From the IMG/VR virus record IMGVR_UViG_3300034177_000015, positions 1-32,023 of that record: a stretch of 32,023 nucleotides of DNA, one strand, 5' to 3'. The position numbers and the translations under genes were made by a program. Shown one piece after another: positions 12,423 to 32,023 of this stretch. The first letter of the stretch is position 1. Each line of letters starts with the position of its first letter. The notes under the pieces were generated by a model, which had not been told where the DNA came from, did no database searches, and was given only the letters and a program-made list of their open reading frames with translations. This DNA is from a virus.

Positions 12423-13096
12423 CGCCGCTTCGGGTGTTCATTGGATTCGATAGACGCCAACCTATCGCCTTTCAAGTGGCGGCGCAGTCGGTCTGGCAGC
12501 GCACGAGCGTCCCGGTGAGCATCACACGGCTGGATATTGCACAGTTGCCGATTACGCGAGTTGGACTAACTGCATTCACCTATTCCAGATTCCTCGCGCC
12601 CTGGCTCTGCGACTTTCACGGCGTCTCGATCTTCATGGATAGCGATGTGCTGGTCCGCGGCGATGTCGCGGAACTGCTCGCCTATCCGCTCATGGAACCG
12701 AAAACGCCGGTGTTTGCCGTGAAGGGCCAGAAGAAATTTGAGTGGGCGAGCGTGATGGTGTTCAATAACCCCCTCTGTCAAATGCTCACACCGTTGGTCG
12801 TGGAGAAACCGCACTTGAATCCCTTGACATTTTACTGGGCGCATACCGTGGGCGAGTTGCCGACAGCATGGAATCATTTGGTGGGGTATGACGCGTCGAA
12901 CCCTGACGCCAAGCTCGTGCATTTTACGGCTGGCATCCCGATCTGGCCAGAGACCAACGGGTGTGAACATAGTGCAGAATGGCATAGCACGGCGAAGGCC
13001 TCGATGGGGTCCGTCTCCTACGAGGCGTTGATGGGGCGCAGCGTCCACAACGTGGCGATCAAAACGGGGGCCATGAAGTTGCAGGCAGGGGTCTGA
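12419..13096 (+). CDS. GT-A type glycosyltransferase (GT8-like)
   Basis: A 225-residue protein. The N-terminal strand RVFIGFDRRQPIAF (5-18) and the DSD motif at 74-76 in FMDSDVLV, which binds the metal and nucleotide-sugar, point to a GT-A fold near family GT8. Arg/His-containing segments toward the end (HFTAGIPIWPE) suit acceptor or phosphate binding. The ATG overlaps the portal stop (ATGA), and the longer reading from 12266 is out of frame inside portal. It could glycosylate virion proteins or the host surface; the acceptor is not evident. Isolated from the second sugar cassette by the scaffold and capsid genes. Confidence 0.75.
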   Translation: MTPLRVFIGFDRRQPIAFQVAAQSVWQRTSVPVSITRLDIAQLPITRVGLTAFTYSRFLAPWLCDFHGVSIFMDSDVLVRGDVAELLAYPLMEPKTPVFAVKGQKKFEWASVMVFNNPLCQMLTPLVVEKPHLNPLTFYWAHTVGELPTAWNHLVGYDASNPDAKLVHFTAGIPIWPETNGCEHSAEWHSTAKASMGSVSYEALMGRSVHNVAIKTGAMKLQAGV

Positions 13097-13533
13097 TGCC
13101 GCTGTATACGTACAGGTGTGAGAATGACCATCGAGCGGAGACGTATCATCCGGTCAAGCTGCTTGGGGCCTATCTGATGCTCTGTGATGAATGCGGAAAA
13201 ACAATGAGCGAAACAGTTATTCAGGCGCCTCTTCTTGTAAAAGTAGCGCAAGATGTGTGCTATGACTCTCCTGTGACGGGCGCGCCGATCACTTCCTGGG
13301 CGGCCCGTGAAGAGGATTTGAAGCGGAACAATTGCCGGCCATACGATCCCGACGCGAAAACTGACCACGCGAATCGAATCAAGGACTCCGAAGCGGCTTT
13401 AGATCGCACCGTCGATGCCTCCGTGGAAGAGGCGATTGAGAAAATGCCAACCGCGAAACGCGGCAAGCTGTTCAGTGAATTGGTGAACCAGGGAGTCCAG
13501 GCCGACGTGATTCGGAGCACGCCGCATGCGTGA
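13096..13533 (+). CDS. FmdB-like zinc-ribbon protein (145 aa)
   Basis: A 145-residue protein starting MPLYTYRCENDH with CDECG at about 30-34, the pattern of FmdB-type regulatory zinc ribbons (C..H...CxxC). It then continues into a phage-specific helical part with no recognised domain (LDRTVDASVEEAIEKMPTAK). Overlaps the glycosyltransferase stop by one base. Such proteins are common in phage packaging or structural regions with no known role. Confidence 0.7.
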   Translation: MPLYTYRCENDHRAETYHPVKLLGAYLMLCDECGKTMSETVIQAPLLVKVAQDVCYDSPVTGAPITSWAAREEDLKRNNCRPYDPDAKTDHANRIKDSEAALDRTVDASVEEAIEKMPTAKRGKLFSELVNQGVQADVIRSTPHA

Positions 13534-13618
13534 TCCGGCACTCCGTCAGGTCATCATTGATGTACTGAGGATGCTCAAGGGTTTAGAGAAGAAACTGAAA
13601 GAACTACTCGATAAATAA
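13526..13618 (+). CDS. Tiny coiled-coil protein (30 aa)
   Basis: A 30-codon frame starting 8 bases inside the end of the previous gene: a single amphipathic helix (VIIDVLRMLKGLEKKLKELL). It ends just before the terminator. The overlap and heptad pattern favour a real gene, but no clear ribosome site is seen. Confidence 0.4.
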   Translation: MRDPALRQVIIDVLRMLKGLEKKLKELLDK

Positions 13619-13650
13619 TCCGCGTACCCGCGCAGAACACGCCGCGTCAC

Positions 13651-13687
13651 ACGCCTCATGGTCCCAAGGGACTGTGGGGCGTTTTTT
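13651..13687 (+). terminator. Strong intrinsic terminator inside the late operon
   Basis: ACGCCTCATGGTCCC pairs with GGGACTGTGGGGCGT across a 3-base AAG loop, then a run of six T. It separates terminase/portal from scaffold/capsid. Confidence 0.85.
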
Positions 13688-13701
13688 ATTCTGGAGGCTC
13701 T

Positions 13702-14715
13702 ATGGCCGAGGAACCGACCGCCACCGTTGAGGTAGACGAGTCTCAATCCATCGACATCGCTGCTGGGGTGGACAAGATCAGCGCCGACCTCTTTCCTGAG
13801 TCGATAGAGAAGGAGCCGACGCCACAAGAGACCGTGGCGACGGCATTGACTGAGCCAGCCATCCCGACCAAGACGGTGGCACCCCTGCCCACGATCCGTC
13901 AGGCCCCGAAGAGTTGGGCCAAGGACGTGCATCCCCTCTGGGAGAAGATCGATCCGAAGGCGCAGGACTACATTGAAAAGCGCGAGAAGGATTTTCTCGA
14001 CGGATCGGAGGGATACAGAGAGGCGGCCAAGTACGGGAAGACATTGCAAGACGCCATCGCCCCGTTTCAGCAGACGTTGCAAGCGCAAGGGATCGATGCG
14101 CCTACGGCAGTCAAGACGCTCCTCGAAGCGCACTACAAGCTGACGCAAGGGACGATGGAATCGCGTCAGGCCGCCTATAAGGATCTGGGGACACGGTTAG
14201 GTCTCCCCGCCGCGCTGGTCACGAACGGCAGCGAGCCGGTCACGCCGCTTGATCCGCGTCTTCAGACCATCGAGCAACAACTCCAAGAACTCCGGGACGC
14301 GCAAACGCGCCAGCAGCAGACGGCCTTACAGACGGCACGAGAGAAAGCCAGTCAGGAAGTCAGTGCGTTCGTGAGTGAGACGAACAAGGATGGCACACCC
14401 ACCCACGTTTTTTTTGATGAGTGTCACGACGCCATCGTGACGTTCCTCAAGGCCGGGGACTCCTTGCAGGAGGCCTACGACAAGGCGGTGTGGGCGAATC
14501 CTGTGACACGCGAGAAATCGAAGCTCGCTTACTTTCAGACAGAAAGTGAGAAGGCCAAGGAACGGGCGCGACTCGATGCCCTGCCCAAGCAGAAGGCGCG
14601 AGGCGTGAACGTCAGAAGTCAGGACACCCAGCGGCCTCCGACAGATCCGCTCGGGTCAATGGAAGACACCTTACGGGCCACCGCGAAATCCATACGCGAG
14701 CGGACCGTCCATTAA
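13702..14715 (+). CDS. Scaffolding / capsid assembly protein
   Basis: A 337-residue protein rich in charged residues, with no hydrophobic core pattern: an acidic N-terminal region, then helices (LQTIEQQLQELRDAQTRQQQ, residues 190-209) and a basic C-terminal end (KSIRERTVH). This is the composition of scaffold proteins that template the procapsid and interact with coat via a basic C-terminus. It lies immediately before the major capsid gene. A GGAGG site precedes the ATG. It is the first gene after the internal terminator. Confidence 0.75.
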   Translation: MAEEPTATVEVDESQSIDIAAGVDKISADLFPESIEKEPTPQETVATALTEPAIPTKTVAPLPTIRQAPKSWAKDVHPLWEKIDPKAQDYIEKREKDFLDGSEGYREAAKYGKTLQDAIAPFQQTLQAQGIDAPTAVKTLLEAHYKLTQGTMESRQAAYKDLGTRLGLPAALVTNGSEPVTPLDPRLQTIEQQLQELRDAQTRQQQTALQTAREKASQEVSAFVSETNKDGTPTHVFFDECHDAIVTFLKAGDSLQEAYDKAVWANPVTREKSKLAYFQTESEKAKERARLDALPKQKARGVNVRSQDTQRPPTDPLGSMEDTLRATAKSIRERTVH

Positions 14716-14735
14716 CCGAGAAGGAGTAACGCACC

Positions 14736-15695
14736 ATGCCAGCGAATGCCACCTTTACGGAACTGGTCACGACCACGTTCCGCAAACATCGCAGTCAAGT
14801 GAAAGACAACCTGAGTCTCAGGATCGCGCTGCTCAAGTACCTGAAGCGGCGCGGGAACTATCGCCTGGAAGATGGCGGGCTTGAAATTGCTTGCCCGCTC
14901 GACTACGCGTCCAATGGGACCTATCAGCGGTATTCCGATTGGGACCTTCTCAATATCAGTCAATCGGACGTGCTCTCCGCCGCTGCCTATCAGTGGCGGC
15001 AGATCGCCATCAACGTGGTGGCGAGCGGGCGGGAGTTGCGCATCAACAGCGGGGAGACGCAGATCATCAACCTCGCCAAGTCGCGCATTAAGAACGCCAT
15101 TCGGACGTTCAACAATAACTTCAGCTCGGATGTGTATTCCTCGGGCTCGCTCACCAATCAGGTGAACGGGCTGCAAGCGATCATTGCCGACACCAACACC
15201 AATACGGTGGGCGGGATCGATGCGAACGTCTGGACGTTCTGGCGCAATACGGTGCTCGATGCGTCGGACGCCGTGACGACCATTTCGGCGACGAATATCG
15301 AGCATGGCTGCATGTTGCCGCTGTGGCTCGATTTGGACCGTGGCCCGGACGATCAGCCGGATTTGATCGTCATGGACGACGTGTACTACGCACTCTTTGA
15401 AGCCTCGCAGACCTCAATGAAGCGGTACAACGACGCGACGAAGAGCGATGCGGGATTCGTGACGATGAAGTACAAGGGGGCGGACGTGATCTTCGACGGC
15501 GCCTCGGGCATTCCGGCGAGCCACGCCTACTTCATCAATACCAATTACCTGGAACTCGTCGCGCATAAAGATGCGGACATGGAGGAAATGGACGCCTTGC
15601 ATCCCGTGAATCAGGACGGCTCAGTCATCCCGATCCTCTGGATGGGCAATGTAGTCTGTTCTAATAGAGCCCTCCAGGGTGTCATTAAGACCTAA
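14736..15695 (+). CDS. Major capsid protein (HK97-fold, probable)
   Basis: A 319-residue protein, the shell subunit. It sits after scaffold as expected. It has an N-terminal helical arm (FRKHRSQVKDNLSLRIALLKYL), a long spine-helix-like segment (AKSRIKNAIRTFNNNF), and the C-terminal A-domain region that typically reads LIVMDDVYYALFEAS, then YKGADVIFDG and AYFINTNYLEL. AAGGAG lies 8 bases before the ATG. Length is normal for podovirus-type coat proteins. Identity rests on position, size and this pattern. Confidence 0.85.
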   Translation: MPANATFTELVTTTFRKHRSQVKDNLSLRIALLKYLKRRGNYRLEDGGLEIACPLDYASNGTYQRYSDWDLLNISQSDVLSAAAYQWRQIAINVVASGRELRINSGETQIINLAKSRIKNAIRTFNNNFSSDVYSSGSLTNQVNGLQAIIADTNTNTVGGIDANVWTFWRNTVLDASDAVTTISATNIEHGCMLPLWLDLDRGPDDQPDLIVMDDVYYALFEASQTSMKRYNDATKSDAGFVTMKYKGADVIFDGASGIPASHAYFINTNYLELVAHKDADMEEMDALHPVNQDGSVIPILWMGNVVCSNRALQGVIKT

Positions 15696-15746
15696 TACGT
15701 AGTGGCGGGCTTCCCCGTTCACTGCTTGGATAAAGGAGACTAGACC

Positions 15747-16244
15747 ATGGCCGTTGCGAGCAAAATCATCAGTCCGATTGTCACGCCAGCCTTGAACGCT
15801 ACGTCCTCGACGCCGGGAATCACGTTGGGGACCATTGCGCACACGGATATGGGGGGCGTGGCCGAATACGGGTACGCCATCTCGCTGATTTCGCAGTATG
15901 CGTTCAGCATCTTGTACGACGGCGGGTCCGCCGAGATGGCGACCACGACCCTGGCCGCCGACGCGGGCAGTTCCAAGAAAATCGGTTGTCCCCAGGCCAG
16001 CATTGCGTCAGCCTATTACGGCTGGTTCATGCGCCAAGGGACGTTCATCGGGCGCTTTTCCGATGACTGTGCCGATCAGGTGCCGTTGTTTACGACCGCG
16101 ACGGCGGGCGAACTCGACGACGCCACGGTGTCGAATTGTCTTGTGGCGGGGGTGTATCTGAACACGACCGCCTCGCTGGCGACCGCGTTGACCTGTTACG
16201 CGGCCACGCCGATGTACGTGCATCCGTACACGAACCCGGCGTAA
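15747..16244 (+). CDS. Probable head decoration / accessory structural protein (165 aa)
   Basis: A 165-residue beta-rich, small-residue-rich protein (Ala/Thr/Ser/Gly; TTTLAADAGSSKKIG) with a few cysteines. It lies directly after the coat gene, where decoration or head-fibre proteins are usual. AAAGGAG precedes the ATG. No specific family recognised. Confidence 0.55.
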   Translation: MAVASKIISPIVTPALNATSSTPGITLGTIAHTDMGGVAEYGYAISLISQYAFSILYDGGSAEMATTTLAADAGSSKKIGCPQASIASAYYGWFMRQGTFIGRFSDDCADQVPLFTTATAGELDDATVSNCLVAGVYLNTTASLATALTCYAATPMYVHPYTNPA

Positions 16245-16246
16245 GC

Positions 16247-17035
16247 ATGGAGACCGCGATCCGACAGCGCCTCCATCTCGATGTGGGTCAGTTTGGCGTG
16301 GCCGCGCAACATCGGCCCGCCATTCTGGCCGCGATGGCGCGCGGACTCCCGGAGTTTGCGCCGGCGCTGGTGGCCCACGACGGGACCATGGTGATTGCTG
16401 GGAGCGGCCCTTCGCTCCCGGCCTTCATCGACGAGATCCGCGCGGAACAGCAGCAGGGCCGCCCCATTTGCGCGGTCAACGGCGCACACGATTTCTTGTG
16501 TGAACAGGGGATTGTGCCGGAGTTGTTCCTGACCGTGGACCCACGCGACCTGCGGCATAACCTCCGGCACAAGAACGAGGACACAATCTATCTTCTGGCG
16601 TCGCGTGTCGCGCCGGAAGTCTTTGACCATTTGAAGGACTGCCGGGTGATGCTCTGGCATTCGGCGGGGCATCCCAGTGAAATGCCGGTGTTTGAAGGGA
16701 CGGGCGTGAAGAAGATCGGCGGTGGGTCTACGTCCGGGCTCCGGGCGATTGCCGTGACCTATCTCATGGGATTTCGGAAGATGCTGTTATTCGGGTTTGA
16801 TTCGTGTAATGACGCCGAGGGGCGCAAACGCTTTGACAGTGGCACCGTGACGGTCAATACCGATGTGATCGTGGGCGGGCGCACCTTCGTTTGTAGCATG
16901 GCCATGGCGGCCCAAGCCAACGAATTTCAGATGTCCACCTACGGCATGCTGCCAGGGTTGCACCTGGAGGTGAAAGGCGATGGCTTGATTGCCGCGATGT
17001 TGGAAGAGAGGCGGAAGGCGGGATATCGGGTATGA
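16247..17035 (+). CDS. DUF115 / Maf-like Rossmann-fold protein
   Basis: A 262-residue protein of the DUF115 (MptE/Maf) type. The first strand-loop, VIAGSGPSL (49-57), is the nucleotide-binding glycine turn. CAVNGAHDFL (75-84) and LTVDPR (95-100) are diagnostic, followed by GGGSTSGLRAIAVTYLMGF (158-176) and LLFGFDS. Maf proteins attach nonulosonic acids to flagellins, while MptE is a pyrophosphokinase, so the reaction is open. The ATG is 2 bases after the previous stop. It starts a four-gene run with a glycosyltransferase and two methyltransferases, which supports a glycan role. Confidence 0.8.
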   Translation: METAIRQRLHLDVGQFGVAAQHRPAILAAMARGLPEFAPALVAHDGTMVIAGSGPSLPAFIDEIRAEQQQGRPICAVNGAHDFLCEQGIVPELFLTVDPRDLRHNLRHKNEDTIYLLASRVAPEVFDHLKDCRVMLWHSAGHPSEMPVFEGTGVKKIGGGSTSGLRAIAVTYLMGFRKMLLFGFDSCNDAEGRKRFDSGTVTVNTDVIVGGRTFVCSMAMAAQANEFQMSTYGMLPGLHLEVKGDGLIAAMLEERRKAGYRV

Positions 17036-17877
17036 AGGCCGTGTTCGTACATAGAATGGGCCCCACGTTTGCGAGTTTCCGCTACCGCGCCCAGATTCCC
17101 GCGAAGGCGATTGGGGCCTCCGTGAACGGCGGTGAAGGCTCCGTCTACATCTTCAGTAAGCCGACGCCGGATGACATCGTGTTGGCGAAAGAGTGTAAGG
17201 CTGAAGGCGTCAAGGTGGTGGCGGATCTGGGCGATGATCATTTTCGGCATCCCACCTGGGGGCCGATCTATGTCGAGATGGCCACACTCTGCGATGCGCT
17301 GGTGGTACCGACCGAGAATATGGCGGGCCGCATTATGAAGTATCTCGGCAGGAAGGCAGATACGATCATTCCCGACCCCTACGAGGAAGCGTTGACGGCC
17401 CCTCATGCGAACGGGAAGGACGCCCGCTATTGCTGGTTCGGGAGTCCGGCGAATCTGAAAGACTTGGATGTCTATTGGCACTTTCTGCAGAACATGCCGT
17501 TGACGGTCGTGACGGGACAGAACCCGCGCAAGAACTTCAACTATATCAGGTGGTCTCCCACGGCGCAGACCGAGCAATTGCACGCGGCGAATATCGTGGT
17601 GCTCCCGATCAGAAAAGGCGTCGAGTACAAGAGCCCCAATCGGTTGGTCAACGCGCTGCGTGCGGGCTGCTTCGTCGTCACCGATCGGCATCCCGCGAGC
17701 CTGGCCTTTCGGCGCTACGTCTGGGTGGGGAATGTGATGACCGGCGTGAAGTGGGCGCAATACTACCACGACGAATTGAACGACATGGTAGCCGAGGGGC
17801 AAGCGTACTGCGAACAGTTTTCACCGGAAAACGTAGGGAAGCAATGGACACAACTTCTCAGCAGCCTGTCCGCATAA
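17032..17877 (+). CDS. GT-B type glycosyltransferase (GT4-like)
   Basis: A 281-residue protein. The N-terminal half has a Rossmann core (KAVFVHRMGPTFASFRYRAQ, VVADLGDDHF) and the C-terminal half the donor-binding domain, with CWFGSPANLKD (134-144), VVLPIRKG, and KSPNRLVNALRAGCFVV (200-216), the family's C-terminal acidic/loop motif. It is a little short for GT4 (usually about 350). ATG overlaps the DUF115 stop. It likely transfers a sugar to a glycan or virion protein; acceptor unknown. Confidence 0.75.
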   Translation: MKAVFVHRMGPTFASFRYRAQIPAKAIGASVNGGEGSVYIFSKPTPDDIVLAKECKAEGVKVVADLGDDHFRHPTWGPIYVEMATLCDALVVPTENMAGRIMKYLGRKADTIIPDPYEEALTAPHANGKDARYCWFGSPANLKDLDVYWHFLQNMPLTVVTGQNPRKNFNYIRWSPTAQTEQLHAANIVVLPIRKGVEYKSPNRLVNALRAGCFVVTDRHPASLAFRRYVWVGNVMTGVKWAQYYHDELNDMVAEGQAYCEQFSPENVGKQWTQLLSSLSA

Positions 17878-18350
17878 ACGTCGGCAGCGGCCTGGCCCAC
17901 TTCCCTGGCAAGTCGTGGATTAACTGCGACCGCCACGGTGACCCTGATGTCCAATGTGACGCCTACCCCTTGCCCTTCGACACGGACTATGCGGATGAAG
18001 TGTGGGCCATTCATTTGCTGGAGCATATCCATCGCTCGGAAGCCGGGCGCGCCCTGTATGAATGGTTTCGCGTACTGAAGCCAGGCGGCAAGCTGGTCCT
18101 TGAAGTGCCATGCCTCGATAAGATTGCGCAGCTCATTGTGAACGGCGAGAAGAACATTCGCTTGACGACGATGGGGCTCTTCGGCGATCCGCGTGACCCG
18201 AAACCTGACATGCTGCACAAATGGTGCTGGTCGAAAACGGAGTTGACCGATACCTTGGTCGGCGTGAACTTTCAGGACATTACCGTGATGGAGCCTATCT
18301 TCCATCTGGCTGCACGGGACATGAGGCTGGAGGCCCGCAAACCATGTTAG
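17844..18350 (+). CDS. Class I SAM-dependent methyltransferase (168 aa)
   Basis: A 168-residue methyltransferase: motif I INVGSG (11-16), an acidic loop then HLLEHI (57-62), and LKPGGKLVLEVP (78-89), all hallmarks of the Methyltransf_11 group. It overlaps the glycosyltransferase gene by 34 bases and the next methyltransferase by 7. A small or sugar substrate is likely given the cassette, but the substrate is not visible in the sequence. Confidence 0.8.
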   Translation: MDTTSQQPVRINVGSGLAHFPGKSWINCDRHGDPDVQCDAYPLPFDTDYADEVWAIHLLEHIHRSEAGRALYEWFRVLKPGGKLVLEVPCLDKIAQLIVNGEKNIRLTTMGLFGDPRDPKPDMLHKWCWSKTELTDTLVGVNFQDITVMEPIFHLAARDMRLEARKPC

Positions 18351-19432
18351 CCTGTCGCCTCTGCTGTGGCCCCACCCGCACGATGCTGTCGCTCACGCCG
18401 ACGCCGCTGGCGAACAGCTTTCCCGACCATCCTGACACCGATGCCGAACGCTTCCCGTTGGACGTGACGCAATGCATCCTCTGCGATCATGTGCAACTGG
18501 GCTCGGCGCCGGCGGTCGATTGGGTGGATTATCGCTATGCGACCCCAGAGGCTGTCAGGCCGCACCTGGCAGCAGCGGCCAGTGTTCTACGTGGAACATA
18601 TCCCGAGGCCAAGACGGTGCTGGAGATCGGCTGCAACAACGGCTTGTATTTGGAGGAATTGCGGCGGGTCGGCTTCAGTGCCGTTGGGATTGATCCTAGT
18701 ACCACGGTTGGAATCGCACGGCCATTCTCTCATTACTATGCAAAGATGTTCCTTGAGCCCGTGGACTTGATCGTGGCGAACAACGTGCTGGCCCATGTGG
18801 ACGACCTCTGGGATGTGTTTCGCGGGATCGACCATCTCTTGAAAGACGATGGGGCGCTGGTGTTTGAGGTGCAATACTTCCCGTATATGGTGCGCGATGG
18901 ATCATTTGACATGATTTACCACGAGCATCGGGACTACCACACGCTGGCTCCGTGGCCAGCCTTCCTGAAACGGTTTGGGTTGTTCATCACGAAAGTGGAA
19001 CCGATTCCTACTCATGGCGGGTCCGTGCGGATCTTCTGTGAACGTCCAGGTGTTGGGGTGTGGTGCATACCGAATGAAGCCACAGACTGGCGCGCCTTCA
19101 AGCACCGCATCGCCGACGCGAAAGCGGTGGTGTTTGCACAGGTGGCGGCGGCTGATGGCCCTATTGTGGCCTTTGGGGCGACGGCGAAGGCCTGTACGCT
19201 GATTCATCACTTTGGGCTGGCGGATCTGATTGACTATTGCGTGGATAGTACGCCAGGGAAACGGCAACGGTATATTCCTGGCACGTCGATTCAGATTGTC
19301 TCGCCAGATGTGATCGGGCCAGAGATCACGATTCTCTTGACCGCCTGGAACTTTGAAACCGAAATCAGAGCGCAATTCACGCATAACAAATTCATCGTCC
19401 CCTTCAGCAAGGAGGTTGTATGTCCGGTGTAA
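18344..19432 (+). CDS. Sugar C-methyltransferase-like protein
   Basis: A 362-residue protein resembling deoxysugar C-methyltransferases (TylCIII/NovU type). Its N-terminal zinc-binding part has CRLCCG (4-9) and CILC (44-47). The SAM core contains LEIGCNNG (93-100) and YHEH (192-195), which is conserved in the family. The C-terminal domain has FGATAKACTLIHHFGL and PGKRQRYIPGT near 277-313. It is slightly short compared with the usual 400 or so residues. With the DUF115 and glycosyltransferase genes it suggests a modified, methyl-branched sugar. Ends 13 bases inside the next gene. Confidence 0.8.
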   Translation: MLACRLCCGPTRTMLSLTPTPLANSFPDHPDTDAERFPLDVTQCILCDHVQLGSAPAVDWVDYRYATPEAVRPHLAAAASVLRGTYPEAKTVLEIGCNNGLYLEELRRVGFSAVGIDPSTTVGIARPFSHYYAKMFLEPVDLIVANNVLAHVDDLWDVFRGIDHLLKDDGALVFEVQYFPYMVRDGSFDMIYHEHRDYHTLAPWPAFLKRFGLFITKVEPIPTHGGSVRIFCERPGVGVWCIPNEATDWRAFKHRIADAKAVVFAQVAAADGPIVAFGATAKACTLIHHFGLADLIDYCVDSTPGKRQRYIPGTSIQIVSPDVIGPEITILLTAWNFETEIRAQFTHNKFIVPFSKEVVCPV

Positions 19433-23109: not shown

Positions 23110-24232
23110 CGGAACCTGTACCATCAACTTTCATCGACGGCGCACAGTCTTGTCCTGTGCGCCATCACCACCACCAGCCCCCGATGTGATTGGTGCCGCC
23201 AAGCAGCAGGGCATCGAAAATAAAGAAACGGCCATCACGCAAGGTCGGATCAATAACCCCAACGTTATCAGTCCCTATGGGACGCAAACGACGACCTGGG
23301 GCACGGTGGATCAACCGGGCTACGACGCCGCGCTCGCTAAATACCAGACCGACCTGGCCGCCTACAACGCGCAACCGCTGACGGCCCAGCCTGGTGCCAG
23401 GACGTGGGTGCCGAGCACGACGGGGAGTTATACCGACGCGCGAAGCGGCGGCGGAACGCCAGGTGGCCAATGGGTGACGGCGCCCAGCACGGGCATTCGT
23501 CCTGGCACGGCCCCCGTTGCGCCGACAAGAGCCCAATTCACTCGGAACCCAGATCAGCCCACCATCACCCAGGTCTTTTCCCCTGAACAGCAAGCCCTCT
23601 ACGATCAAAGCACGACCACGCAGCAGCAGCTCGGGCGCGTGGCCGGACAAGGGGCCACGGCCCTCGAAGGCGTGGTCGGCACCCCCGTCGATTTCTCCGG
23701 CGCCCCTCAAACCGGCAACTACGACGCCACGCGCAAAGCCGTGATTGACGCCATGATGGGGAGGGTGAATGAGGATTACGACAAGCGCACGGATACCGAC
23801 CGCTCCAATTTGATTGCTGCCGGCATTCGCCCAGGGAGTAAAGCCTATGCCGATAATCAGCAGATGATCGAGCGGAGCCGCAACGACGCCTATCAGCAAG
23901 CGGAAATCGCGGGAGGCAACGCCGCCTCTCAGGCTTACGGCATGGATGAAGCCCGAAGACGGCAGGCGATCACCGAACTGTTAGCCGAGCGGCAAACCCC
24001 CATCAACGAAATCAGCGCCCTCCTGTCCGGCTCACAGGTCAGCAATCCGTTCAGCATGCCGGGGTATGCGCAAAATACGCAAGTCGCCCCGACGCCCTAT
24101 TACAACGCGGCGCAGGCGGCTGGGCAGTACGGCACCGATATCTTTAATCAGCAGGCGGCCAGCGCAGGGAACACACAGAGCGGCCTGATGGGCCTCGGGG
24201 GGACGGCCATCATGGCAGGAGCGATGCTATGA
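23081..24232 (+). CDS. Probable internal/ejection protein A (383 aa)
   Basis: A 383-residue protein of small, Gln/Ala/Gly/Thr-rich composition, with a long helix region (DYDKRTDTDRSNLIAAGIRP, about 228-247, then EIAGGNAASQAYGMDEARRRQ) and a Gly-Met C-terminus. This composition and its place after GNAT fit podovirus virion core proteins. The start is GTG at 23081, with GGAG 7 bases before it; it lies inside the end of the GNAT gene. The CAPSPPPAPD near residue 26 resembles the true N-terminal motif of related phage proteins, so a later start is possible. Confidence 0.6.
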   Translation: MSKLTPLQSDGTCTINFHRRRTVLSCAPSPPPAPDVIGAAKQQGIENKETAITQGRINNPNVISPYGTQTTTWGTVDQPGYDAALAKYQTDLAAYNAQPLTAQPGARTWVPSTTGSYTDARSGGGTPGGQWVTAPSTGIRPGTAPVAPTRAQFTRNPDQPTITQVFSPEQQALYDQSTTTQQQLGRVAGQGATALEGVVGTPVDFSGAPQTGNYDATRKAVIDAMMGRVNEDYDKRTDTDRSNLIAAGIRPGSKAYADNQQMIERSRNDAYQQAEIAGGNAASQAYGMDEARRRQAITELLAERQTPINEISALLSGSQVSNPFSMPGYAQNTQVAPTPYYNAAQAAGQYGTDIFNQQAASAGNTQSGLMGLGGTAIMAGAML

Positions 24233-24894
24233 AGGCGCTCGCGTTCTCCGGGGGCAAAGATTCGATGGCGTGCCTCCATCTGCTCAAGGACGAATTGGAC
24301 TGCGCCATCTACGTCGATACGGGTTACACGTACCCCGAGACGCACGCCATGGTCGCGTATGCCAGTACCATGATTTCGATGCACCGCGTCAAGAGTGACC
24401 GCCAAGGTCAGCAAGCGTTGAATGGGCTCCCCTCCGATGTGGTGCCGGTGGAATGGACGGTCACCGGGCAATCTATTACCGGGAAGAAAGCGACGACCAT
24501 TCAAGCCTCCCTGCAATGTTGCTACGAGAATCTGTCTCGCCCGTTACTGGATCGTGCCAAAGCACTGGGCGTCACGGAGCTGGTCTATGGGCAGCGGAAG
24601 GAAGAACTGTACACGGCCCCCTCGAAGCACGGGGAGGTCGTGGAAGGCATGACGCGCCTGTATCCCATTGAGGACTGGACCACCAGGCAAGTACTCGACT
24701 ATCTGGCGACGAAGATGCAAGTGCCAGACCACTACACACTCACCCGCTCCTCGCTCGATTGCTACGACTGCCCGGCCTATCGGCGCGTATCGCAGGATCT
24801 CCATGCCTGGACCAAGGACCGCTATCCCCACTATTACGCCGCCTTTCAGCAGAACTGTAACACCGTCTATGCGGCCATTCAGGAGGCGCTGTAG
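24229..24894 (+). CDS. PAPS-reductase-family protein with Fe-S type cysteines
   Basis: A 221-residue adenine-nucleotide alpha-hydrolase-like protein. SGGKDS (7-12) is the P-loop-like motif that binds ATP, APS or PAPS. CC at 97-98 (QCCYENLSRPL) and CYDC at 178-181 give the CC...CxxC arrangement that in assimilatory APS reductases ligates a [4Fe-4S] cluster. The catalytic C-terminal ECGLH cysteine of true reductases is not seen. It could instead act in thiolation or a DndC-like reaction. It lies between two ejection-protein genes, an unexpected site for sulphur chemistry. Overlaps the previous stop (ATGA). Confidence 0.75.
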   Translation: MKALAFSGGKDSMACLHLLKDELDCAIYVDTGYTYPETHAMVAYASTMISMHRVKSDRQGQQALNGLPSDVVPVEWTVTGQSITGKKATTIQASLQCCYENLSRPLLDRAKALGVTELVYGQRKEELYTAPSKHGEVVEGMTRLYPIEDWTTRQVLDYLATKMQVPDHYTLTRSSLDCYDCPAYRRVSQDLHAWTKDRYPHYYAAFQQNCNTVYAAIQEAL

Positions 24895-26498: not shown

Positions 26499-28015
26499 CG
26501 ACCGCGATTGACGAAAAAGAGGAGTTTGAATTCCTCTACCAAATGGAGCAGGACGCCAAGGCGGGCATTCCACCGCCTAATCCCGCACCAGTGAAAGCCT
26601 CGATGGGCGACGTGATCGCGGGCACCCCGCTGGCACGCCTTGGAATGGGCTTGGCCTCACCATTGATCGGCGCGGCTCAGATCGGCGCGCATGTCGGCGA
26701 TGTGGCGAACCGCGCAATGGGTGTCGAGCCAATGGTGAGCCCGTGGATCGACAAGAAATTGTCAGAGTATGAAGCCGCCAAGCAACGCGGCATGAAGGCG
26801 TCTGGCACCGAAGGCTTTGACGCGATGGGCCTGATCGGGTCCTTGCTGCCTGGATCATCTATCGCCAAGGGTGTGACAGCCGCGCTGCCAGCCGCCAAGA
26901 ACATCGGAGGGAGAATCTTGCAAGGGGCAGGCATTGGGGCAGCGACGTCAGCCGCGCAACCCGTCGTCAACTCGCCTGAGTTTTGGAGCGACAAGGGCAA
27001 GCAGGCTGGGATCGGAGCGGTAACAGGGGCAGCGGTGCCAGCGGTAGCGGAAGCCTTACGGGCGGCACGCGGGATGCCGCAACTCAATCCTGTGAAGGCA
27101 CAGACGCTCAAAGAAGGCCAGGCGGCTGGCTACGTCGTGCCGCCGTCCACGGTCAATCCATCGTTCCTCACCAATCGACTGGAAAGCGTGGCTGGGAAGG
27201 CGGCAGTGGGACAGGAAGCGGCGAAGAGGAACCAAGAAGTGACAAATGCGCTGGCGGCGAAATCGTTAGGCCTTCCGAAAGAGACGACCTTGACGCCTGA
27301 AGTGTTGAGCGAGTTCAGAACGCAACAAGGGAAAGTCTACGAACAAGTGGCCGCACTCTCCGACACGGCGAAAACTGCATTGAACGAACTCAAGCAAGCG
27401 CGCCATGACTCCAAAGTGCAATGGAACTTTTACAACCGCTCAGGCAACCCGGAGGCGCTTGCGACTGCGAAGAATGCCGATGCGATGGCAGAAATGTTCA
27501 CGGACGAGTTAGGCACTGAAGCCACAAAGGTGGGTCGGTCTGATCTGATTCAATCCCTGACGGATGCCCGTACAAAAATCGCCAAGTCGTTCGATGTGAG
27601 CCGCGCACTCAATGCGTCATCTGGTGAGGTGAATGCGCCGACGTTGGGAAAGATATTTGCCAAGCGAGGCGACAAGGCGATGACAGGTGAACTCGCCACG
27701 ATAGGGAAAATGGCGGGCGCGTTCAAGGGATCGATGCGCGAAGGTGGGAACGTCCCAGTCTCAGGCGTCAGTGGCACTGATGCCGCAGCCTCAGCCTTAC
27801 TGGGAGTCGCGGGAGCAGCTGGAGGAGGGCCAATGGGGCTCCTTGCTGGTGGATTGCCGCTACTGCGTGGACCTGCCCGCAACTTGGTGCTCTCGAAGGC
27901 CTATCAGAACTTCGCGACCAGCGACCCCTCAAAGTATCAGGCGCTCATTGATGCGCTTTCGCAGCGCGGCGCGGGGGCAGCAGGGACCATCGCCGGACGA
28001 GGAGTACAGCCATGA
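26495..28015 (+). CDS. Probable internal/ejection protein C with glycine-zipper segments (506 aa)
   Basis: A 506-residue Ala/Gly-rich protein. An acidic helix opens it (EEFEFLYQMEQDAKAG). Gly/Ala hydrophobic segments near 40-66 and 110-150 (GRILQGAGIGAATSAAQ) and near the C-terminus (AASALLGVAGAAGG, GLLAGGLPLL) could span a membrane, as ejection proteins do when they form a channel. Helical middle. The start overlaps the previous stop (ATGA), and its stop overlaps the tail-fibre start. Confidence 0.65.
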   Translation: MTTAIDEKEEFEFLYQMEQDAKAGIPPPNPAPVKASMGDVIAGTPLARLGMGLASPLIGAAQIGAHVGDVANRAMGVEPMVSPWIDKKLSEYEAAKQRGMKASGTEGFDAMGLIGSLLPGSSIAKGVTAALPAAKNIGGRILQGAGIGAATSAAQPVVNSPEFWSDKGKQAGIGAVTGAAVPAVAEALRAARGMPQLNPVKAQTLKEGQAAGYVVPPSTVNPSFLTNRLESVAGKAAVGQEAAKRNQEVTNALAAKSLGLPKETTLTPEVLSEFRTQQGKVYEQVAALSDTAKTALNELKQARHDSKVQWNFYNRSGNPEALATAKNADAMAEMFTDELGTEATKVGRSDLIQSLTDARTKIAKSFDVSRALNASSGEVNAPTLGKIFAKRGDKAMTGELATIGKMAGAFKGSMREGGNVPVSGVSGTDAAASALLGVAGAAGGGPMGLLAGGLPLLRGPARNLVLSKAYQNFATSDPSKYQALIDALSQRGAGAAGTIAGRGVQP

Positions 28016-29145
28016 GCTTTAACGGCAGTGGAGTATTCGTGGTCAACAGCGCTGGCCAACCTGTCGTGGCTACTACGCTCATTACGGCAGCGGCGATGAA
28101 TGCCCTCACGGCTGATCTGGCTACAGGACTATCAAATTGCATTCTGAAAGACGGCACACAGACCCTCACCCAAAACATCCCTTTCAACGCCAAGAAGATT
28201 ACGGGCCTCGGCGCGGGATCTGCGCGCACCGATGGGGCCTCCTTAGCGACCATTCAGGACGGGACCGGCGTGTACGTGGCGACGGTCGCTGGCACGGCGG
28301 ACGCCATTGAACTGACGCCCTCCCCCGCGATTACGGCGTATGTCGCGGGGCAGACCTTCAGGTTCTTGGCGAGCGGGGCCAATACCACAGCCGTGACCGT
28401 CGCGGTCTCAGGCTTAGTCGCCAAAGCCCTCACAAAGAATGGCACGACGGCCCTCGTGGCAGGGGATATTCCATCGGCGTCGATGGTGTCCGTCACCTAC
28501 GACGGGACGCGGTTTATCATCGTGACCGCTGCCTTGTCGTTCTCGATTCTCGATACGGCGGGCGATCTGATCTATGCGTCGGCGGCGGATACCGCCGCGA
28601 AGCTGGCCATCGGCACAGCGCGGCAGGCATTGACCGTCAACGCCGGAGCGACGGCGCCCGCATGGGCGAACCCTATCACCATCGGGACCGAGCAAGCCTC
28701 TACCTCGGGCACCTCGATCGACTTCACCGGCATTCCCGCTGGCGTGCGGCGGATCACGATCATGTTTGTCGGAGTGTCTACCAACGGGAGCGCAGAACCG
28801 TGGGTTCAATTGGGCGATGCAGACGGGTTCGAGGCGTCTGGATATACGAGTACGATTGCCGTCTTATCGAATGTAAACACGGTCGTTGTCACAGATGAAA
28901 CAAACGCCTTTCAGGTAAGTACGCAAGGCGCAACCGTCGCATTGACAGGAACGCTGGTCTTGTGTTTGGAGGATGCGGCACAATTTACTTGGATGGCGTC
29001 AGGGAATTTTAACAGATCCGACACTGTTTTCAATGTTGTTGCAGGCTCCAAGTCACTCAGCGCCGAACTCACACAAGTACGGATTACCACAAGCAACGGG
29101 AGTGACGCCTTTGACGCGGGAGCGATCAACATCAATTACGAATAA
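28012..29145 (+). CDS. Tail fibre / tail structural protein (377 aa)
   Basis: A 377-residue, Thr/Ala/Ser-rich beta protein. Segments such as DGTQTLTQNIPFNAKKITGL (47-66) are the standard tail-fibre shaft signature, and the C-terminal part (GIPAGVRRITIMFVGVSTNGS) resembles a receptor-type beta domain. It has no signal peptide, as expected for a cytoplasmically assembled fibre, unlike the three genes that follow. Located after the ejection genes, as in podoviruses. Confidence 0.8.
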   Translation: MSFNGSGVFVVNSAGQPVVATTLITAAAMNALTADLATGLSNCILKDGTQTLTQNIPFNAKKITGLGAGSARTDGASLATIQDGTGVYVATVAGTADAIELTPSPAITAYVAGQTFRFLASGANTTAVTVAVSGLVAKALTKNGTTALVAGDIPSASMVSVTYDGTRFIIVTAALSFSILDTAGDLIYASAADTAAKLAIGTARQALTVNAGATAPAWANPITIGTEQASTSGTSIDFTGIPAGVRRITIMFVGVSTNGSAEPWVQLGDADGFEASGYTSTIAVLSNVNTVVVTDETNAFQVSTQGATVALTGTLVLCLEDAAQFTWMASGNFNRSDTVFNVVAGSKSLSAELTQVRITTSNGSDAFDAGAININYE

Positions 29146-29156
29146 TAAGGAGCCCT

Positions 29157-29339
29157 ATGCCAGCCACCTATCAAGTCATCACGGCCACGGGGCGCGTGGC
29201 GCTGGACATCCAGCTGAACGAGCAAGCCAAGAACTTCTATCGACCCATCTTGTTCGCCCAGTCCGAAGGGATTCTCGCAAGTGGAGAAACCCAGAAGAAC
29301 GTGCATTACACGGTGATTCTGGAGCATAGGCCATCATGA
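29157..29339 (+). CDS. Small hypothetical protein (60 aa)
   Basis: A 60-residue beta-rich protein (YQVITATGRVALDIQLNEQA) with AAGGAG 6 bases before the ATG. It lies between the fibre and the first signal-peptide gene. No family recognised; perhaps a fibre chaperone or accessory. Confidence 0.6.
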   Translation: MPATYQVITATGRVALDIQLNEQAKNFYRPILFAQSEGILASGETQKNVHYTVILEHRPS

Positions 29340-29353
29340 CAAAGGAGACGACC

Positions 29354-30313
29354 ATGTGGACACGACGACTCCTCACTGGGCTGCTGCTGGTGGGCCTCTG
29401 GGCCTTCTATAGCCCGCATGTCCACGCCTCCTGCGAGGTGCAAACATCCACCGCGACCTACGCGAACGGGACCTTTATCGGGGGTGATCTCTGCGATGAG
29501 AACGGTAACAAAAAGACCACGACCAACGGGTCTTTGGGTGGCAGCGGCACCGCCACAGAAGTGGCGCCAACCTTGGCAGAAGGCGCTGGTGCCGCCTTCT
29601 CCTTCGACCTCTCCGGACAACTCCGCACGACGCCCGCGCTGGCATTCTTTGAAGATTCGACCAACAGCCTGGCCCGGGTCAGCGGTGGGGCCATTCGCAC
29701 TTCGACCGTAATGACCGGCGTGACCACCAATACCACCAGCGCCACGACGCCCGTGTTCAGTGGAGCCAAGACGCCGATGGCGAGCGTGACCGGCACCGGA
29801 GCCCAGACCGCAACGGTACAGTTTTATGGGGACATGGAGAACACGACGACACACGGGGAAGTGTTGTGTCCCGCCATCGTATTGAGTGGGACCACCAAGG
29901 CGGTCGGATTTTGCCCACAGGTCAGCAAGGATTACCCGTATGTGCACGCGGTGACTACGGCAGTCACCGGCACCGGGGCGACCGTGGAAGCGGTGATTGT
30001 CACGGGGTTAGCGAGCGCCTCCAAGGACGAGTGGCTGTCGTCGGGCATTAAGACGGCGGACGCGCTCATCAAAACCGGCGCCGGGAAATTGCAGTGCATC
30101 ATTATTGCCCAAAACGACGCGGCCCCGACCGCTGGCACGATCAGCGTGAACGATGCGGTCTCGGCAGGCACGGGCACCGCGCTGTTCACCTGGGTGCTGA
30201 CCACGGCGGTGTTCTCGCCGTTTCAAGTGTGCCCGCAGGTGCCGTTTACGACGGGGCTGTATATCGACAACACAACTGTTGGTGACGTGAATATTTCGTT
30301 GTCGTACAGATGA
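29354..30313 (+). CDS. Secreted beta-rich protein 1, Sec signal peptide
   Basis: A 319-residue protein. The N-terminus is a clear signal peptide: basic WTRR, hydrophobic LLTGLLLVGLWAF, then a V-H-A cleavage site before SCEV. The mature part is Thr/Ala/Gly/Val-rich and beta-predicted, with several cysteines that could form disulphides outside the cytoplasm. The opening resembles phage structural proteins (TYANGTFIGGDLCDENGNKK). I use ATG 29354 because AAGGAG lies 7 bases before it; ATG 29336 overlaps the previous stop but lacks a site. First of three such genes. Confidence 0.65.
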   Translation: MWTRRLLTGLLLVGLWAFYSPHVHASCEVQTSTATYANGTFIGGDLCDENGNKKTTTNGSLGGSGTATEVAPTLAEGAGAAFSFDLSGQLRTTPALAFFEDSTNSLARVSGGAIRTSTVMTGVTTNTTSATTPVFSGAKTPMASVTGTGAQTATVQFYGDMENTTTHGEVLCPAIVLSGTTKAVGFCPQVSKDYPYVHAVTTAVTGTGATVEAVIVTGLASASKDEWLSSGIKTADALIKTGAGKLQCIIIAQNDAAPTAGTISVNDAVSAGTGTALFTWVLTTAVFSPFQVCPQVPFTTGLYIDNTTVGDVNISLSYR

Positions 30314-31074
30314 TACTTAATGGTTATAAAATGACTGACGAGCATAAGAGGAAGATCAGTCTGGCTTTGATCGGACGGAAGAATCCAAAGATCAGTCTTG
30401 CCAAGATGGGCCACAGCGTCTCCGAAGAAACGAGACGCAAGATCAGCCTTGCGAAGAAAGGCGTTCCTAGTCCTACCAAAGGCAGGAAATTTCCCCCAGA
30501 GTTCGGAGCGAAAATCAGCGCGAGATTGAAGGGCCGAGTTGGTACCAACAAAGGAAAAACTTTCTCAGCCGAAGCACGCGCCAATATGAGTAAGGCTCGC
30601 AAGGGTCACTCTGGTCCCAATAAGGGCAAAACATTTTCACCAGAATACCGAGCCAAATTACGTGAGGCCCATCTTGGTCAGGTGGCGTGGAATAAAGGGC
30701 TCAAGGGCGTTCAGAAATCGTGGAACAAAGGAAAACCGTCCCCGTGGATGAAAGGTGAGAAGAACTGTCGCTGGAAAGGCGGCGTCACGGCTGCGCACCG
30801 ATTGGAGCGTGCAAGTATCCAAGCGCGAGAATGGCGCGAAGCCGTCCTCGCCCGTGACGCCTTCACCTGTCAGCACTGTGGCCAGATTGGCGGCAAATTA
30901 CAGGCTGACCATATCCGTATCTGGGCACACCATCCAGAACTTCGATTCGATGTGAGTAATGGACAAACACTCTGCAAGTCCTGTCACAGCAGAAAAACCA
31001 GCACCGACATGAAGGAATATTGGGTGACGACATTTTCAAAACAATCAGTTCAGGTGAGCGCGATGAAGCCATGA
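30310..31074 (+). CDS. HNH endonuclease with NUMOD3 repeats (homing-type)
   Basis: A 254-residue free-standing homing-type endonuclease. The first 125 or so residues hold about five NUMOD3 DNA-binding repeats (S/T-x-E-x-R-x-K-I-S-x-A-x-x-G; e.g. SEETRRKISLAKKG at 38-51). The HNH domain has zinc cysteines CQHC at 187-190 and CKSCH at 222-226, with D200-H201, N217 and H226 as the catalytic set. The start overlaps the stop of secreted protein 1, and its stop overlaps the start of secreted protein 2. Its base use is more A-rich than its neighbours, a sign of recent transfer. Confidence 0.88.
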   Translation: MILNGYKMTDEHKRKISLALIGRKNPKISLAKMGHSVSEETRRKISLAKKGVPSPTKGRKFPPEFGAKISARLKGRVGTNKGKTFSAEARANMSKARKGHSGPNKGKTFSPEYRAKLREAHLGQVAWNKGLKGVQKSWNKGKPSPWMKGEKNCRWKGGVTAAHRLERASIQAREWREAVLARDAFTCQHCGQIGGKLQADHIRIWAHHPELRFDVSNGQTLCKSCHSRKTSTDMKEYWVTTFSKQSVQVSAMKP

Positions 31075-31772
31075 AGAAATACCTCCTCCTGATTCCGCTC
31101 CTCTGCCTCCTGGCCTCGCCGGTCTGGGCCTTCCCCGACAACGGCCTACTGGACGACTTTACCGGCTGCACCGATACCACGACCCCGCCGAACGCCAACT
31201 GGACCAATACCGTGTTGCGTGGTGCTACGTCGAGCACGGTGGACTGTGAAGATACGGCGGCGACTGCCACGACCACGGGCACCGAGGCGGATATGTATTG
31301 GCACGCCACGACCTTCAACGCCGACTCCGAAGCCTACGGCACCGTCGTCGGGACGTTGGCTGGCTTTGTCTCGGCGGCAGTTGGAGTTCGCATGGTGAAT
31401 ATTGGTGCTAGCACCACGGACGGCTACATGGTGAAGGTGAGCGATGGGCTCGCTACGATTGTGATTGAACGCATTGACAACGGTACATCAACTGAAATTG
31501 CAACAGAGGCGCAAACGATCACCTCTGGGGATAGTTTCGGGATTCGCGCCGAGGGCTCGTCTATTTGTTCTTGGTACAAGCTCGCCGCTGGGGGCTGGAC
31601 ACAAATTGAATGCGCTACGGATGCCACCTACACCGCTGGAGGGAATTTGGGTGTGATGGTCCAAGGCAACGGCGCGGTTGGGGCGTTAGACGACGTGGGC
31701 GGTGGCAATCTTGCGGCGGCGGCGGGTGTGCTGCAATCGCCTGCGCTCCCGAGTGTGCTCTTTCAAGAATGA
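31071..31772 (+). CDS. Secreted beta-rich protein 2, Sec signal peptide
   Basis: A 233-residue protein. MKKYLLLIPLLCLLASPVWA is a textbook signal peptide with a V-W-A cleavage site before FPD. The mature part (NGLLDDFTGCTDTTTP...) looks like a concanavalin-type beta-sandwich with aromatic and Thr/Gly-rich strands (GSSICSWYKLAAGGWTQIEC). I chose ATG 31071 because a longer reading puts 17 hydrophilic residues before the signal. It overlaps the endonuclease stop (ATGA). The ribosome site is weak, suggesting coupling. Function unknown; a sugar-binding or virion-adhesion role is possible. Confidence 0.65.
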   Translation: MKKYLLLIPLLCLLASPVWAFPDNGLLDDFTGCTDTTTPPNANWTNTVLRGATSSTVDCEDTAATATTTGTEADMYWHATTFNADSEAYGTVVGTLAGFVSAAVGVRMVNIGASTTDGYMVKVSDGLATIVIERIDNGTSTEIATEAQTITSGDSFGIRAEGSSICSWYKLAAGGWTQIECATDATYTAGGNLGVMVQGNGAVGALDDVGGGNLAAAAGVLQSPALPSVLFQE

Positions 31773-31780
31773 GGTCCAGG

Positions 31781-32023
31781 ATGCTGCTGAAATTTGTGCT
31801 CGCGTTGGTTCTCCTGAGCTTTCCCTCTCTGGCCCAGGCCACGACCTACTATATCTCCCCCACTGGCTCTGATGCCGCGGCTGGCACTTCGACAGGTACC
31901 GCCTGGCAAACATGGAGCAAAGCATTGGGGGCCAGTTCTGCTTGCGGTGATACCATCCTTGTCATGGACGGCACCTTCACCACGGCGACACATGGCAATC
32001 CCTCGCTCACCAAGGTCTGCACG
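31781..32023 (+). CDS. Secreted probable beta-helix protein 3, Sec signal peptide, partial
   Basis: Open frame to the window end, 81 codons seen. The signal peptide is LLKFVLALVLLSFPSL with an A-Q-A site before TTYYISPTGSD. The mature start, YYISPTGSDAAAGTSTGTAW, then KAL..., GDTILVMDGTF, matches the opening of parallel beta-helix proteins of the pectate-lyase/DUF1565 type, which often bind or cut polysaccharide. GAGGT lies 7 bases before the ATG. The rest of the gene lies beyond the window. Confidence 0.65.
   Translation, partial: MLLKFVLALVLLSFPSLAQATTYYISPTGSDAAAGTSTGTAWQTWSKALGASSACGDTILVMDGTFTTATHGNPSLTKVCT

Follow-up and report, generated by a model that had tools for sequence, protein, structure and literature searches.

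Tailed-phage assembly is taught as wholly cytoplasmic. Why, then, do genes at the end of the tail region of a short-tailed phage encode proteins that open with Sec signal peptides, and are their products really exported? The genes in question lie at the right end of the window, by which we mean the whole stretch of DNA analysed, a complete IMG/VR virus record of 32,023 bases and 33 genes. Distant kin of this phage include Bradyrhizobium ppBjS10J-1, Sulfitobacter pCB2047, Myxococcus Mx8, and the cave-spring phage MW202489. The structural genes begin on the left with the terminase (8707) and portal (10137) and extend rightward to the tail fibre (28012–29145, plus strand), and the three genes of interest, named A, C, and D, are situated after it. 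The fibre has the conserved N-terminal anchor of podovirus fibres: residues 1–74 match the virion structural protein family phrog_13989 (E 1.7e-7), and this N-terminus is kept in seven related phages at 38–74% identity. It has no signal peptide, in agreement with an earlier sequence-only reading of the same DNA, and neither does a 60-residue open reading frame between the fibre and gene A (29157–29339, plus strand). Elsewhere in the window, the structural operon includes genes of sugar-modification type (12416–19432; glycosyltransferase-8-like, MptE-like, and two methyltransferases, one of them a C-methyltransferase) that possibly alter host surface glycans or the virion. A gene with a PAPS reductase domain (24229–24894; PF01507, E 5e-11) is flanked by tail structural genes, and the minus strand at 1509–2477 encodes a weakly matching Cas4/DUF83-like nuclease (PF01930, E 8e-6).

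The three signal-bearing starts at 29354, 31071, and 31781 were confirmed: each lies behind a ribosome-binding site and is of the classical Sec type, with a basic n-region, a hydrophobic core, and an A-x-A type cleavage site. Signals were ranked with a home-made score that combines n-region charge, the hydrophobic stretch, and the A-x-A motif, on which A reaches 5.04, C 5.37, and D 5.74. When the N-termini of the other genes in the window are shuffled, a score of 5.0 is reached at a rate of 0.00017; shuffles of A, C, and D equal their own real score at a rate of at most 0.00005; and no other gene of at least 90 residues in the 33-gene window scores above even 4.0. All three signal genes fall within the last four of the 33 genes (p = 0.0007). 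An earlier, stricter threshold missed visible signals and gave weak clustering, and the calibrated score was used in its place. None of the three signals has a lipobox with a cysteine at +1: the cleavage sites read HVHA/SC in A, VWA/FP in C, and AQA/TT in D. Lipidation of A on its cysteine at +2 was also considered and ruled out, with histidine at −3 of that cysteine and glutamine adjoining it in a signal-bearing homologue. The classification of A, C, and D as predicted signal peptidase I type Sec-exported proteins is well supported.

The sequence-only reading had described three successive genes. They are neighbours, and strict succession is broken by a 254-residue homing-endonuclease-like gene of the NUMOD3-HNH type (30310–31074, plus strand), which overlaps A and C by a few bases each and matches PF07460 (E 2.1e-20, 72.8 bits) and PF01844 (E 8e-8, 32.8 bits), both above cut-off. 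This gene is an insertion that stands outside the export module. A chimeric contig end or host DNA was ruled out because adjacent genes overlap or are almost contiguous, homologues of A and C are found in phages, and modules of the same type occur in other phages. Among direct relatives whose contigs extend beyond the fibre, lysis or unrelated genes follow and no signal-bearing adhesins were found, with the exception of one truncated signal-bearing open reading frame in L033; L004, whose tail hub is 79% identical to that of this phage, stops within the fibre. A tblastn search of 50,697 phage records with A, C, and D returned zero matches, and a scan of IMG/VR with A and D gave no confirmed match. 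Matches in L043 and L045 were weak.

Gene A (29354–30313, plus strand) encodes a beta-type protein of 319 residues with six cysteines in its mature part. Its 25-residue signal peptide (29354–29428, plus strand), immediately preceded by the ribosome-binding site AAAGGAG, reads MWTRRLLTGLLLVGLWAFYSPHVHA and is followed by SCEV. The protein is built of three pieces. The first 28 mature residues are 54% identical to the signal-bearing protein L127:4512, with both cysteines retained; the middle domain shares 47% identity with a small phage open reading frame in L044 that has no signal; and the C-terminal domain bears a weak likeness to the virion structural protein family phrog_30830 (E 0.0047). 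No close homologue was found over its whole length. Gene C (31071–31772, plus strand; 233 residues, four cysteines) has a 20-residue signal peptide (31071–31130, plus strand), MKKYLLLIPLLCLLASPVWA, followed by FPDN. The only close homology found for it is to the N-terminal domain of a Dit-like tail protein in L002, an unrelated siphovirus (31–35% identity). Its low-confidence model (mean pLDDT 51) is an all-beta sandwich that best matches CBM66 (Foldseek E 3.5e-4, VIA Z 8.9), also matches the receptor-binding domain of phage TM4 gp23 (Z 8.3), and lies near receptor-binding or fibre domains of Douge, like TM4 a mycobacteriophage. Pfam gave no match for A or C; no beta-barrel of the Ail/Lom family was found, and C modelled as a ConA-like sandwich. 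These matches fit a putative carbohydrate-binding fold of the ConA/CBM66 type for C. Gene D (31781–32023, plus strand) is cut by the record end after 81 codons; its 20-residue signal peptide (31781–31840, plus strand) reads MLLKFVLALVLLSFPSLAQA and is followed by TTYY. An alternative in-frame ATG at 31769 overlaps the preceding stop codon and would merely extend the n-region. The 81 readable residues resemble the start of a right-handed beta-helix, with a match to the Pel9A-like family PF22842 that falls under its cut-off (E 0.0017), 46% identity over 48 residues to the signal-bearing L046:1511, and likeness to the signal-bearing beta-helix L071:6007. The description of all three mature proteins as beta-rich holds for C by its all-beta model and for D by the sub-cut-off beta-helix match, and for A by homology and composition only, its structure model having a pLDDT of 38. 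The idea of polysaccharide binding or cleavage fits the low-confidence fold of C and, for D, the sub-cut-off match and the likeness to signal-bearing beta-helices.

Comparison with homologues suggests how the signals arose. Homologues without a signal start exactly where cleavage of the signal-bearing forms is predicted. In L139:2947, the residues after the cleavage site (AQA followed by ARINIIGFESG) align with the N-termini of the minor tail protein gp13 of Streptomyces phage Hiyaa (M-ARLWTCGFESQ) and of L092:5249 (M-AILNFYGMETG). Likewise, C (VWA followed by FPDNGLLDDFTG, or at the junction itself VWA followed by FPDNG) aligns with L002 (M-AFPTTGILETFTG, beginning M-AFPTTG), which starts at the cleavage point of C. 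L002 does have an N-terminal hydrophobic segment, ambiguous as a homologous signal; it was placed with the signal-less forms, as the cysteines are missing from its domain and as a second start, preceded by a ribosome-binding site of its own, follows the hydrophobic segment, exactly at the start of the domain. The tail region of the same siphovirus also encodes a GDSL/SGNH esterase with a signal-like N-terminus (L002:13129–13738). In L071, the adjacent genes at 2494 and 2903 have in common a 57-nucleotide signal-coding stretch with one silent change, followed by unrelated mature parts, and we read this stretch as the trace of signal duplication or copying between genes. Homologues without the N-terminal segment had been named in advance as what would argue against a conserved signal. 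Such homologues do exist; they do not weaken the case for the signal, because their starts coincide with the cleavage point and the cysteines are missing from them. These comparisons strongly support the view that A, C, and D are relatives of tail or decoration proteins with an added, predicted Sec signal peptide.

The cysteines offer a line of evidence apart from the signals themselves. Of 26 complete signal-bearing proteins, picked by eye with cysteines not a selection criterion, 23 have a mature part with an even cysteine count and three have odd numbers; in the same loci, 39 of 91 signal-less genes that encode any cysteine have even counts (Fisher p 3.5e-5). Cysteine density in the signal-bearing proteins is ~2.0 per 100 residues versus 0.24 in signal-less family members, a difference of ~7-fold (p 1e-12); with every signal-less gene in those loci as the comparison, the difference in the complete-gene set is modest (p 0.02). 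An automatic census of 80 loci gave the same direction, with even counts in 14 of 20 signal genes versus 116 of 318 others (p 0.004) and densities of 1.67 versus 0.56 per 100 residues. When signal-bearing and signal-less versions of a domain are paired, they have zero cysteine positions in common. The counts, signal-bearing versus partner, are four versus one for C, six versus two for L139:4601, two versus one for the middle domain of A, two versus one for L127 and its partner in Caulobacter phage KSC, and two versus three in two further pairs. Folding in an oxidising compartment would lead one to expect even and dense cysteines, and on this ground we infer that export and oxidative folding are probably real.

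Is the arrangement peculiar to this phage? The middle domain of A led to contig L044/L126, where the next gene encodes a signal-bearing virion-like protein, and a scan with that protein yielded 80 viral loci. About 70 of these have signal-less members, usually starting MADN, and a minority have true signals; the neighbours of signal-bearing members are often signal-bearing as well. The automatic census counted 12 same-locus pairs of signal genes versus 2.8 expected (p 0.0002). In all, runs of two to five neighbouring signal-peptide genes were found in the structural or adhesin region of ~10 phages with at least five unrelated head types, and their products are virion-like beta domains, ConA/LamG lectin folds, and right-handed beta-helices. 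L139/L046 has five signal genes consecutively (virion-like, beta-helix, LamG, small, and TIG/fn3); L127, L052, and L137 have three each, L055 and L131 two each, and L071 and L126 several in the region. The trio of L137, the complete podovirus MW202554, consists of a virion-like protein, a ConA lectin, and a GH28 beta-helix, the same fold types as the trio of the window. The head and portal families of these phages vary (phrog_212, 3437, 9953, 334, 12, and 156); therefore, the pattern does not belong to one phage lineage. Signals may also be hidden by gene callers that choose a later start: the database start of the MW202554 GH28 gene, 8691, omits a clear signal that begins at GTG 8653 (MRLLAIVTTLLVVMPALVEA; L137:8653–10250, MW202554.1). 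The search for like signals in homologues, proposed with the sequence-only reading, found the pattern recurring in ~10 unrelated phages. The case for export of tail-type proteins is good: such signals occur in unrelated phages, exactly in front of proteins that elsewhere have none, and with them go even, disulfide-type cysteines that the signal-less homologues do not have.

One further feature of these regions is a C-terminal LLLGVG(x) sequence, which ends many jelly-roll or lectin-type proteins of the tail region in unrelated phages, with or without signal peptides. It is present in L139:2947–4140, L137:7864–8655, L052:4299–5069, L127:5188–5934, L066:1872–3347, L105:4940–6142, and ~15 more loci, and may be a common docking or assembly tag.

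What would exported tail-type proteins do? The sequence-only reading had offered secreted surface proteins or adhesins built outside the cytoplasm, and its interpretation is partly supported. Our leading reading, which we put at somewhat short of an even chance, is that A, C, and D together make up a module of export-type adhesins and that a periplasmic pool of adhesins, freed at lysis, docks on virions. The three proteins would be produced when the late structural genes are expressed, pass through the inner membrane via Sec, be cleaved by signal peptidase, and fold in the periplasm with disulfide bonds. With less certainty, the folded adhesins may be held in the periplasm until lysis and then bind virions released into the same space, which might thereby gain disulfide-stabilised appendages, glycan-binding in the case of A and C and glycan-cutting in the case of D. 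Two observations favour docking: homologues that agree in start, length, and C-terminal tail are tail proteins, and the LLLGVG-like tail is common to signal-bearing and signal-less proteins of many phages. Against docking stand the absence of that tail from A and C (the C-terminus of D lies beyond the record end) and the absence of phiCbK gp103, a signal-less homologue in the adhesin slot, from the eight virion proteins detected by mass spectrometry (PMC3556154, Table 2). No virion-anchor domain was identified in A, C, or D. The phiCbK result also suits the main rival, that the proteins are exported and stay free: A, C, and D would pass through Sec as soluble lectins and a polysaccharide lyase, be released at lysis or via a host outer-membrane route, and act on the capsule or matrix of the infected cell, aiding progeny spread and never entering the virion. 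This explanation draws on the same export and disulfide evidence, on enzyme-like partners (the GH28/pectate-lyase beta-helix of MW202554 and a beta-helix with PF13229 in L071), and on the likeness of C to CBM66 in a low-confidence model. We consider it unlikely, if a serious contender, since the correspondence with signal-less tail proteins from start codon to C-terminal tail and the presence of virion-like domain proteins in nearly all runs suggest a role in the tail.

Export might also serve receptor masking or superinfection exclusion, in which the adhesins, from outside the infected cell or from its periplasm, would bind its receptor glycan and block further adsorption, like envelope proteins of the Lom, Llp, or Ltp type. 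Exported phage proteins encoded beside tail genes are indeed known, both Lom of lambda, encoded between tail genes (PMC12309495), and the Ltp lipoproteins (PMC11480721), and adhesin folds would bind the receptor of the fibre. However, A, C, and D lack a surface anchor, be it a lipobox, a beta-barrel, or any other kind, they would be kept periplasmic by a Gram-negative outer membrane, and runs of three to five differing large adhesin-type proteins exceed what masking needs, which leaves this explanation improbable. Least probable of all is that no export takes place in the infected cell, either because translation starts downstream or because the N-termini are remnants of captured host genes for secreted proteins, so that A, C, and D would be ordinary cytoplasmic tail components. 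The second start of L002 past its hydrophobic segment and the database start of the MW202554 GH28 gene are of the kind that this explanation predicts. Yet ribosome-binding sites precede the signal starts, cysteine density and parity track the signal across several independent domain families, and the signal segment in L071 was copied between genes with a silent change only.

Among known systems, lambda Lom and other tail-region morons are likewise signal-peptide proteins encoded among the tail genes of tailed phages and exported to the envelope; Lom, however, is a single outer-membrane beta-barrel, whereas the present genes, several side by side, encode soluble, cysteine-paired proteins of lectin, beta-helix, and virion-like type that are homologous to tail proteins. 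The superinfection-exclusion lipoproteins Llp of T5 and Ltp of TP-J34 are exported phage products as well, but A, C, and D lack their lipobox, are larger, are encoded by several genes, and have predicted adhesin folds. The same putative folds or homologous sequences, in the same slot near the tail genes, are found in ConA-type minor tail or central fibre proteins (TM4 gp23, Douge gp20, Dit with CBM, and Hiyaa gp13), of which Hiyaa gp13, like L092:5249, has no signal peptide and none of the cysteines, while C and L139:2947 have both. D opens with what may be the beta-helix entry motif of Pel9A-like tailspike and pectate-lyase beta-helices; unlike phage tailspikes, which normally have no signal peptide, D has one, as do secreted bacterial lyases. 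Inovirus coat proteins such as M13 pIII and pVIII are virion proteins with Sec signals and are finished outside the cytoplasm; those filamentous phages are extruded through membranes, whereas the phages here are tailed. Exported phage proteins near tail genes are already known; for tail adhesins in clustered, cysteine-paired, and signal-bearing form, a literature search, with most subscription journals outside its coverage, found no report.

More generally, some tailed phages may complete their virions outside the cytoplasm: Sec-exported, periplasm-oxidised adhesins would attach after lysis, partly by a shared C-terminal docking peptide, and the signal peptide would be a mobile add-on that makes a cytoplasmic tail protein an exported one, with cysteine pairs gained later. 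We regard this generalization as possible, with the balance leaning against it. Parity of cysteines offers a sequence-only route to more cases, and lyase or glycoside hydrolase genes of this kind may carry auxiliary metabolic gene labels in virome surveys. If true, the recurrence of exported tail-type proteins would mean either a post-lysis step in assembly or a set of secreted, glycan-targeting phage proteins.
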